This document shows, piece after piece, positions 39,350-42,426 of a DNA stretch of 64,000 bases. Position numbers and translations under genes: made by a program. Numbering within the stretch: the stretch's first letter is position 1; each line of letters begins with the position of its first letter. Origin of the DNA: Acidobacteriota bacterium (GTDB lineage: Bacteria; Acidobacteriota; Aminicenantia; Aminicenantales; Saccharicenantaceae); NCBI GenBank assembly GCA_039683095.1, contig JBDKSB010000012.1, positions 776,293 to 840,292 on the forward strand, in the 5' to 3' direction. Below the pieces are notes generated by a model. It searched no databases, was not told where the DNA came from, and worked only from the letters and a program-made list of their open reading frames with translations.

Positions 39350-40252
39350 ATGAAGGGCGTGACAATGGCTTCGAGCGGGTTATCAGAAACGGCGCCGATC
39401 CGGGAGCTCCTCCTCAAGCATCCGCGGCAGGCCTGGATCGACCGGGACGGCGTCCGGAAGCAGTGGCGGGACCTGGGCTACGCCGGGGAGCCGGACTTCA
39501 GCCGGGCCTGCGACGAATACGACGCGTTCGCCGGGATCCTCGGGCGCTGGGCGGGAGCGATCCGCTTCCTTCCCGCCGACCCCGGGACGGGCCTTGATTC
39601 GATCTACGTCCGGGACGCCGCTTGCGCCGGGCCGCGCGGCGTCATCCTCTGCCGGATGGGCAAAGAGCTCCGGCGGGGCGAGCCGGCGGCCGTCGGCGGC
39701 CTTATCCGGGGGGCGGGCCGGCCCGTGGCCGGCGAGATCCGGGCGCCAGGCACCCTCGAAGGCGGCGACGTCGTCTGGCTCGACGGGAAAACGGTCGCCG
39801 TCGGCCACGGCTACCGGACCAACGCCGAGGGGATCCGGCAGTTCCGGGAGCTCCTCGCGGCGGACGGCATCGAGGTCCTCGAGGTTCCTCTGCCCCACTG
39901 GGACGGCCCCGGCGACGTGCTCCATCTGATGTCGATGCTGAGCCCGGTCGATCAGGGAAAGCTGCTGGTCTATTCCCGCCTGCTCCCCGTGCCCTTCCGG
40001 AAACGCCTGCTGGAATCGGGCTTGGGGCTGGTCGAAGTTCCGGACGAGGAATACGGCTCAATGGGTGCGAACGTCCTGGCCCTGGCCCCGGGGAAGTGCC
40101 TGGCCCTGTCCGGGAACCCGCGGACGGCGGCCGCCCTGGAGAAGGCCGGGATCGAGGTCCTGGCCTACGAGGGCCGGGAGATCTCCGCCAAGGGCGCCGG
40201 CGGCCCGACCTGCCTGACGCGGCCGTTCAGGGAATGGCCTGGCGCCGCCTAG
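39350..40252 (+). CDS. Dimethylargininase / arginine-modifying (amidinotransferase) family hydrolase
   Basis: 300 residues (295 if the ATG at 39365, which has AAGGG upstream, is used). The guanidino-modifying enzyme fold is shown by SIYVRDAA with the first catalytic acid, GTLEGGDVVWLDG, the catalytic His in GDVLHLMSMLSPVD (about residue 192) and the catalytic Cys in GGPTCLTRP (about residue 288). Members hydrolyse dimethylarginine to citrulline or act on arginine/ornithine derivatives. The size fits DDAH better than arginine deiminase (about 400). Citrulline so formed could feed argG, but no gene link is visible. Cytosolic, no signal peptide. Confidence 0.78.
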   Translation: MKGVTMASSGLSETAPIRELLLKHPRQAWIDRDGVRKQWRDLGYAGEPDFSRACDEYDAFAGILGRWAGAIRFLPADPGTGLDSIYVRDAACAGPRGVILCRMGKELRRGEPAAVGGLIRGAGRPVAGEIRAPGTLEGGDVVWLDGKTVAVGHGYRTNAEGIRQFRELLAADGIEVLEVPLPHWDGPGDVLHLMSMLSPVDQGKLLVYSRLLPVPFRKRLLESGLGLVEVPDEEYGSMGANVLALAPGKCLALSGNPRTAAALEKAGIEVLAYEGREISAKGAGGPTCLTRPFREWPGAA

Positions 40253-40261
40253 CGGCCCTCG

Positions 40262-40388
40262 AAATTGACAGTTCGGGCGGGGAATTGTGGACGTTCCGTC
40301 CCCCTTTCCCCGCCAACCCGAGCGGGGAATTGTGGACGTTCCGTCCCCCTTTCCCCGCCTTGAAAATTGACAGTTCGGGCGGGGAATT
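40262..40388 (+). repeat. Duplicated promoter-region segments
   Basis: A 38-bp segment beginning GCGGGGAATTGTGG occurs twice without change, at 40277-40314 and 40322-40359. A 25-bp segment beginning AAATTGACAGTTCGGG occurs at 40262-40286 and 40364-40388, flanking the pair. Each 25-bp copy carries TTGACA, but only the second is followed by a -10. This looks like recent tandem duplication of an upstream region. Confidence 0.85.
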
Positions 40389-40395
40389 CTATACT
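40367..40395 (+). promoter_or_regulatory. Strong promoter of the SPT-like gene
   Basis: Perfect TTGACA (40367-40372), 17-bp spacer and TATACT (40390-40395, five of six). The leader would be about 27 nt, with AAAGGA eight bases before the ATG at 40429. It is one of the best sigma-70-type promoters in the window. Confidence 0.8.
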
Positions 40396-40428
40396 TGGGG
40401 GCTGAAATCCTACCAAAGGACGTGCAAC

Positions 40429-41661
40429 ATGGACCTTTTCGAGAAATGCAAGGGCTTTTATTCCGACCCGAAGGTCGCCCAGAAATACGGCTATCCGCTT
40501 AATCCCCGGACGGCCCAGGCCATGGGCCTGTTCCCCTTCTTCATCCCCATCGACCGCGCCGAGGGGCCCGAAGCCTATATCCACGGCAAGAAATACATCA
40601 TGATCGGCTCGAACAACTACGACGGGCTGACCACCCATCCCAAGGTCAAGGAAGCGGCCATCGAGGCCATCAAGAAGTACGGCACGAGCTGCACCGGCTC
40701 GCGCTTCCTCAACGGCACCCTGGACCTCCACATCGAGCTCGAGGGCCGGCTGGCCAAGTACGTCGGCAAGGAAGCGGCTCTCGTCTTCAGCACCGGCTTC
40801 CAGGTCAACCTGGGCTCCATCCCGGCCATCATGGACAAGGACGACATCATCGTCACGGATAAAGAGGTCCACGCCAGCATCATCGACGGCGTCCGCATGG
40901 CCAAGGCCCTGAAGAACGTCCAGATCCGGACCTACAAGCACAACGACCCAGCCGACCTCGAGCACGTGCTGAAGGGTCTGCCGGCGGGGCCGGCCAAGCT
41001 GGTCATCGTCGACGGCGTCTTCAGCATGGGCGGCGACATCGCCAAGCTGCCCGAGATCATCCCCCTGTGCAAGAAATACGGCGCCCGGTTCATGTCGGAC
41101 GACGCCCACGCCATCGGCGTCCTCGGCGGCGGCCGGGGCACGGGCTGGCATTTCGGGCTGCAGGACGACGTCGACCTGGTCATGGGCACGTTCAGCAAGT
41201 CCCTGGCCTCGGTCGGCGGCTTCATCGCCGGCCCCAAGGAGGCCGTCCACTTCATCCAGATGTTCGCCCGGCCGTTCATGTTCAGCGCCAGCCTGCCGCC
41301 GTCCAACGTGGCCGCGGTCCTGGCCTGCCTGGACATCCTCGAGGCGGAGCCGGAGCGCGTCGAACGGGTCAACAAGGTCGCGGCCCGCGTCCGGACCGAG
41401 CTCCGGGCCATGGGCTACAACATCGGCGCCTCCGAAACGCCCATCATCCCCATCGTCATCGGCGACGCGATGAAGACCCTGAAGGCCTGGAACGTCTTCT
41501 TCGAGGCCGGGATCTATACCAACGTGGCCCTGCCGCCCTCCGTCCCGCCCGAGTTCTCGTGCCTGCGGACGAGCTACATGGCCACCCACACGGACGAGCA
41601 GGTCGACCGCGTCCTCGAGATCTTCAAGCAGGTCAAGCCGCTCATCCAGACCGCGGCCTAA
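40429..41661 (+). CDS. Alpha-oxoamine synthase, serine palmitoyltransferase-like
   Basis: 410 residues, PLP enzyme of the family containing 2-amino-3-ketobutyrate CoA ligase, 8-amino-7-oxononanoate synthase and serine palmitoyltransferase. The PLP Lys is near residue 257 in GTFSKSLASVGG; upstream are the cofactor-stacking His in DKEVHASIIDG and the Asp/His pair in SDDAHAIGVLG. Segments such as IGSNNYDGLTTHP and GSRFLNGTLDLH resemble Bacteroidetes-type serine palmitoyltransferase more than BioF, and no biotin genes are near. That would make it the first step of sphingolipid synthesis. 2-Amino-3-ketobutyrate CoA ligase remains possible, and no threonine dehydrogenase is adjacent. Cytosolic, expressed from a strong promoter. 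Confidence 0.75.
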   Translation: MDLFEKCKGFYSDPKVAQKYGYPLNPRTAQAMGLFPFFIPIDRAEGPEAYIHGKKYIMIGSNNYDGLTTHPKVKEAAIEAIKKYGTSCTGSRFLNGTLDLHIELEGRLAKYVGKEAALVFSTGFQVNLGSIPAIMDKDDIIVTDKEVHASIIDGVRMAKALKNVQIRTYKHNDPADLEHVLKGLPAGPAKLVIVDGVFSMGGDIAKLPEIIPLCKKYGARFMSDDAHAIGVLGGGRGTGWHFGLQDDVDLVMGTFSKSLASVGGFIAGPKEAVHFIQMFARPFMFSASLPPSNVAAVLACLDILEAEPERVERVNKVAARVRTELRAMGYNIGASETPIIPIVIGDAMKTLKAWNVFFEAGIYTNVALPPSVPPEFSCLRTSYMATHTDEQVDRVLEIFKQVKPLIQTAA

Positions 41662-41859: not shown

Positions 41860-42426
41860 ATGCGGATGAACGAGACGGAGAAGGAGCTCGTCGACATGGT
41901 TCTCGCCGGCCGGGCCGAGGCTTTCGAGCCGCTGACGGCCCCGTACCGGGGCCGGCTGCTGGCGCTGGCGTCGCGGCTGACCCGGGACCGCGAGGAGGCC
42001 ATCGAGGTCGTCCAGGAAACGCTGCTAAGGGCCTACCGCTCGCTCGGGCGCTACGACGCCGCCCGGCCCTTCCGCAATTGGCTCTTCCAGATCGCCGCCA
42101 ACGAGGCCCGGGACCGCTACAGGCAAAAAGCCCGGGAGCGGGCCTCCTTCGAGGAAGCGGCCGGGCGGGCGCCGGCGGCCGAGGACCCGGAGGCCGGGCA
42201 GGACCGCCGCGAGCTGCGCGATGGGGTGCGGCGGGCCATGGCCGCCTTGAGCCCTCGGGAGCGGGAGGTCTTCGTCCTCCGGGACCTCGAGGAGCTCGAC
42301 ATCCGGGAGACGTCCCGGGCGCTGGGTTGCTCGTCGGTCTCGGTCCGGGTCCACTTGTCAGCGGCCCGGCGCAAGATGCGCGAGGCGATCCGCCGGGACT
42401 TTCCCCATCTGGAGGTCGGACGATGA
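41860..42426 (+). CDS. ECF-type RNA polymerase sigma factor
   Basis: 188 residues. Region 2 is seen in VVQETLLRAYRSLGRYD and FRNWLFQIAANEARDRYR; region 4 in LSPREREVFVLRDLEELD followed by the helix-turn-helix ETSRALGCSSVSVRVHLS. There is no region 3, as expected for ECF factors. It directs polymerase to a small set of promoters once released from its anti-sigma factor. The next gene, overlapping by four bases, encodes that anti-sigma protein, and the third gene an exported STN-domain protein, so the operon probably senses an envelope signal. Confidence 0.92.
   Translation: MRMNETEKELVDMVLAGRAEAFEPLTAPYRGRLLALASRLTRDREEAIEVVQETLLRAYRSLGRYDAARPFRNWLFQIAANEARDRYRQKARERASFEEAAGRAPAAEDPEAGQDRRELRDGVRRAMAALSPREREVFVLRDLEELDIRETSRALGCSSVSVRVHLSAARRKMREAIRRDFPHLEVGR

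Follow-up and report, generated by a model that had tools for sequence, protein, structure and literature searches.

A probable local tandem duplication at the promoter of a serine-palmitoyltransferase-like gene

The repeats in front of a PLP-dependent acyltransferase gene in the window (the whole 64,000-nucleotide stretch of DNA that was analysed) are probably a species-specific, ragged local tandem duplication at the promoter of that gene; slippage or a template switch, with a quasi-palindrome as its site, would have produced it. The array is an ordinary local duplication and not a mobile element, with adjacent direct copies that are missing at the orthologous site of relatives. It offers a clean example of a promoter region duplicated locally with a hairpin made from the promoter's own spacer, and does not indicate a new system.

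Layout of the repeats

The repeats occupy the space between an arginine deiminase/dimethylargininase-like gene and the acyltransferase gene, as follows.

39350..40252, + strand: arginine deiminase/dimethylargininase-like gene, upstream (profile matches)
40262..40286, + strand: first of the two 25-bp promoter-segment copies, presumably dead (TTGACA at 40265-40270, no -10)
40277..40314, + strand: 38-bp imperfect palindrome, copy 1 (repeat search, folding)
40315..40321, + strand: 7-nt linker AACCCGA between the palindromes (by alignment, what is left of the promoter segment in the middle copy, which is shortened)
40322..40359, + strand: 38-bp imperfect palindrome, copy 2 (repeat search)
40364..40395, + strand: live ancestral promoter AAA-TTGACA-17-TATACT (congener conservation, promoter scan)
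40429..41661, + strand: PLP-dependent acyltransferase gene, predicted to be driven by the live promoter (NCBIfam/Pfam profile matches)

For the acyltransferase, the nearest NCBIfam models were serine palmitoyltransferases, matched at scores below the curated cut-offs. A gene for a sigma-70 family (ECF-like) sigma factor (Pfam) lies just 3' of it, at 41860-42426.

Repeat search and inspection of the sequence confirmed the 38-bp segment that the first-pass annotation had described as duplicated exactly 45 bp apart: the copies at 40277-40314 and 40322-40359 are an exact direct repeat with a start-to-start distance of 45, extendable to 41 nt at 98% identity. The 25-bp segment AAATTGACAGTTCGGGCGGGGAATT forms a second exact pair (40262-40286 and 40364-40388, 102 apart), extendable to 32 nt at 91% identity. 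These TTGACA-bearing copies had been described as flanking the 38-bp pair; they are present, but the flanking is not simple, since they overlap the first ten bases of the 38-bp unit, GCGGGGAATT, which therefore occurs three times. The 22-mer TTGACAGTTCGGGCGGGGAATT occurred twice in the window versus 0.00 expected in shuffles, and this region was the only one in the whole 64-kb window with exact direct repeats of at least 18 nt within 300 nt. The array was not reported by Tandem Repeats Finder.

In both copies the 38-bp unit can be written as the imperfect palindrome (G)GCGGGGAA-TTGT-GGACG-TTC-CGTCC-CCCT-TTCCCCGCC, with a stem of 9 + 5 bp and a loop of 3 nt. In copy 1 the outer arms are GGCGGGGAA (40276-40284) and TTCCCCGCC (40306-40314), and GGACG/CGTCC surrounds the loop TTC. 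The GGGGAA...TTCCCC-like pairing that had been suggested within the unit is thus real; folded as DNA, the region gave z = -4.0 and beat all 200 shuffles, and folded as RNA it gave z = -3.2 and was beaten by one shuffle only. The region matched no known RNA family in Rfam at E up to 1, and a terminator scan of it found none.

Live and dead promoter copies

The downstream copy reads TTGACA-17-TATACT at 40367-40395 (-10 at 40390-40395), agrees with the consensus at 11/12 positions and was the sole promoter called in a scan of 40100-40600. In the upstream copy the place of the -10 is taken by TGGACG, and from its sequence this copy is not expected to serve as a normal promoter. Sequence and scan agree with the earlier statement that only the copy adjoining the serine-palmitoyltransferase-like gene has a proper -10 (TATACT, 17-bp spacing). 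The palindromes precede the point where transcription from the live promoter should begin, so its mRNA is expected to lack them.

The genome that contains the window (3.3 Mb) has nine TTGAC-N17-19-TATACT sites including the live promoter. The other eight had no exact direct repeat of at least 12 nt from -250 to +60 nt, so within that sample duplicated promoters are no general feature of the genome.

Conservation of the promoter and absence of the array in relatives

The acyltransferase gene was found in 34/40 genomes, the window's own included, at E up to 1e-120. Upstream DNA was read from 10 of 12 congeners (G007 gave no match at the threshold, and the contig of G012 starts inside the gene). 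All 10 have TTGAC(A/T)-17-TATACT, placed so that 32-33 nt separate the -10 from the same start codon, with a conserved AAATTGAC start, a conserved GGCGGGGAAT-like spacer and an invariant TATACT. The predicted promoter has the traits of the sigma-70 type: -35/-10 hexamers, a spacing within 16-18 and conservation in front of the gene. The C-terminal motif of the upstream gene was found upstream of the acyltransferase gene in 9/10 congeners. Outside the genus, the eight relatives with the closest gene copies were examined: TTGAC-17/18-TATA(G/T)T occurred in five, one of which has it 108 nt away from the start codon, and three gave no match to that regular expression.

The array was absent in 18/18 relatives, comprising all 10 readable congeners and all eight more distant genomes. 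No exact direct repeat of at least 13 nt was found in the 250 nt upstream in 17 of these 18 (95 nt only for G035); the upstream DNA of the nearest congener, G002, has one 13-nt direct pair, of a sequence other than the repeats of the window. When the region was used as a 203-bp DNA query against 60 genomes including its own, eight genomes matched, the seven relatives among them through the live promoter and leader only. Since the promoter is kept in relatives and the repeats are absent from them, the downstream copy is taken as ancestral and the remainder as new in this species. The comparison with close relatives proposed in the first-pass annotation thus leaves its central claim standing, that the segment was duplicated recently and that only one of the promoter copies is live: the promoter is present in 10/10 readable congeners and the duplication in none, and conservation of the two-copy structure in relatives, which would have spoken for function, was not observed.

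The same annotation took the perfect identity of the copies as a sign of a recent event. Identity with G002 is 92.0% over gene body and promoter and 78.5% over the upstream gene, so that about 3-8/38 differences would be expected between copies as old as the split from G002, versus the 38/38 identity observed. This contrast with the neighbouring divergence suggests either an event younger than the split or homogenised copies.

The conservation data also bear on the reading that the array is a functional cis-regulatory one, in which the two palindromes, at roughly 43-80 and 88-125 bp before the point where the transcript should begin, would tune the promoter by binding a regulator or by hairpin extrusion. 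Strong dyads directly upstream of a conserved promoter and the perfect identity of the two copies speak for it, but the array is absent in 10/10 readable congeners though the promoter is conserved, the 45-bp spacing amounts to about 4.3 helical turns rather than a whole number, and Rfam gave no match; this reading is considered unlikely. Because they are not conserved, the upstream copies and palindromes are taken to be probably inert, though they may slightly affect the promoter or the read-through that comes from the upstream gene.

Origin of the array

In the proposed duplication, the unit would be about 57 bp long and consist of the promoter -35, the spacer and a 28-nt segment that completes the palindrome. 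It would be present as one full copy and one middle copy shortened by 12-14 bp, in addition to the original promoter. The likely mechanism is slippage during replication, or a template switch, where the promoter's own GGCGGGGAATT spacer forms the core of a quasi-palindrome. The three rows align as follows.

Row 1: GCC-CTCGA-(AATTGACAGTTCGG)-GCGGGGAATT-GTGG...CCCC
Row 2: GCC-AACCCGA-(gap)-GCGGGGAATT-GTGG...CCCC
Row 3: GCC-TTGAA-(AATTGACAGTTCGG, one A more)-GCGGGGAATT-CTATACT

With a 14-nt gap, the middle copy can be aligned to this unit of about 57 bp, and the spacings add up (102 = 57 + 45). By alignment, the palindrome arms repeat or invert the spacer of the live promoter: the arm TTCCCCGCC complements the promoter spacer, with the distal arm of copy 2 (40351-40359) complementary to 40378-40386. 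The spacer is old and largely conserved in the genus consensus. No source was found for the 18 nt at the palindrome's centre, GTGGACGTTCCGTCCCCC. The 28-nt segment had no convincing match in the upstream DNA of relatives (2/20 congener comparisons were slightly above the 95% shuffle level, with about one expected), and to that extent copying does not account for the insert. Against the duplication also stands the linker AACCCGA, which gives no clean junction.

Searches for dispersed copies

The first-pass annotation had offered a short mobile palindromic unit as an alternative to slippage, and the genome-wide check for dispersal was run as a mismatch search. With up to 3 mismatches, GGGGAATTGTGGACGTTCCGTCCCC gave two matches in the 3.3-Mb genome, both at this locus, and none in 147 other genomes (relatives); the same arms with any loop of 8-32 were found in the own genome at this locus only. 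A candidate dispersed palindromic element was rejected, the unit being restricted to one locus of its genome and absent from the 147 relatives. In genome_contigs the core 18-mer was matched exactly five times, in line with chance (a rough estimate gives ~7 for 257 Gb at an even base composition), and in viral_contigs it had no match; these contig databases possibly omit records of the genome to which the window belongs.

Shorter words were also searched. A 13-mer with one mismatch occurred at 21 places in the own genome, exactly only at the two in this locus. A looser 17-mer (one mismatch) matched 7/148 genomes, the own included; the other six were single matches, with 100-nt flanks judged by eye to be unlike this locus. 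One of them, G002:C1:243570-243586 (L013 1501-1517), lies behind a stop codon and consists of a perfect stem, GGGGACG-GAA-CGTCCCC, with GTTTTT directly after it; from this sequence it looks like an ordinary terminator, and the core of its hairpin is similar to the central part of the palindrome in the window.

REP/REPIN-type elements have many dispersed intergenic copies and share sequence with the flanks of Y1/RAYT genes; neither property was found for this unit. A REP/MITE-like short mobile palindromic element inserted beside the promoter and then doubled is improbable here and already largely refuted. The unit is palindromic and of REP-like size, its central 18 nt lack a local source, and two Y1-transposase-like genes (L088, L089) lie about 14 kb apart on contig C9 of the same genome. 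Against this stand the single locus and the empty search of 147 relatives, the chance-level and absent core matches, and arms that match the old promoter spacer and not a foreign unit; moreover, no 11-mer was common to the repeat region and the two Y1_Tnp loci with about 1.5 kb on either side.

Assembly error and a regulatory switch

Misassembly in what is a single, probably metagenome-derived, assembly is likewise a doubtful explanation. The array is known from a single assembly, and short tandem repeats and hairpins are error-prone, but the locus lies well inside a 1.29-Mb contig. A simple expansion error, moreover, would not yield copies with different linkers and flanks and a shortened one in the middle. 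It is very unlikely that the array is a newly arisen regulatory switch in which the palindrome arms (40351-40359) would compete with the live promoter spacer (40378-40386) for strand pairing, whereby hairpin copy number or extrusion would tune expression of the sphingolipid-type gene.

Comparison with known systems

Mobile promoters occur as near-identical promoter copies before unrelated genes. As in these, the promoter segment is present more than once, but here the copies lie side by side at one locus and the extra copy has no -10; with up to 3 mismatches the promoter pattern was found in the own genome only at this locus, and not before unrelated genes. The array resembles REP/REPIN and BIME elements (PMC8049555) in that short palindromic units, two in a row in this case, lie between genes, and differs in not being dispersed and in sharing no sequence with the Y1 transposase loci. 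Quasi-palindrome-associated template-switch mutations and slippage duplications are known, for example in E. coli (PMC7202029). The likeness to these template switches lies in the imperfect inverted repeat and, under the proposed origin, in a local templated change and a neighbouring stretch copied inverted; here the event is larger and apparently multi-step, includes one segment for which no source was found, and has a mechanism deduced from sequence alone. The comparison of relatives also reveals that, in front of the serine-palmitoyltransferase-like gene, promoter and leader (40364-40428) are strongly conserved across the genus.
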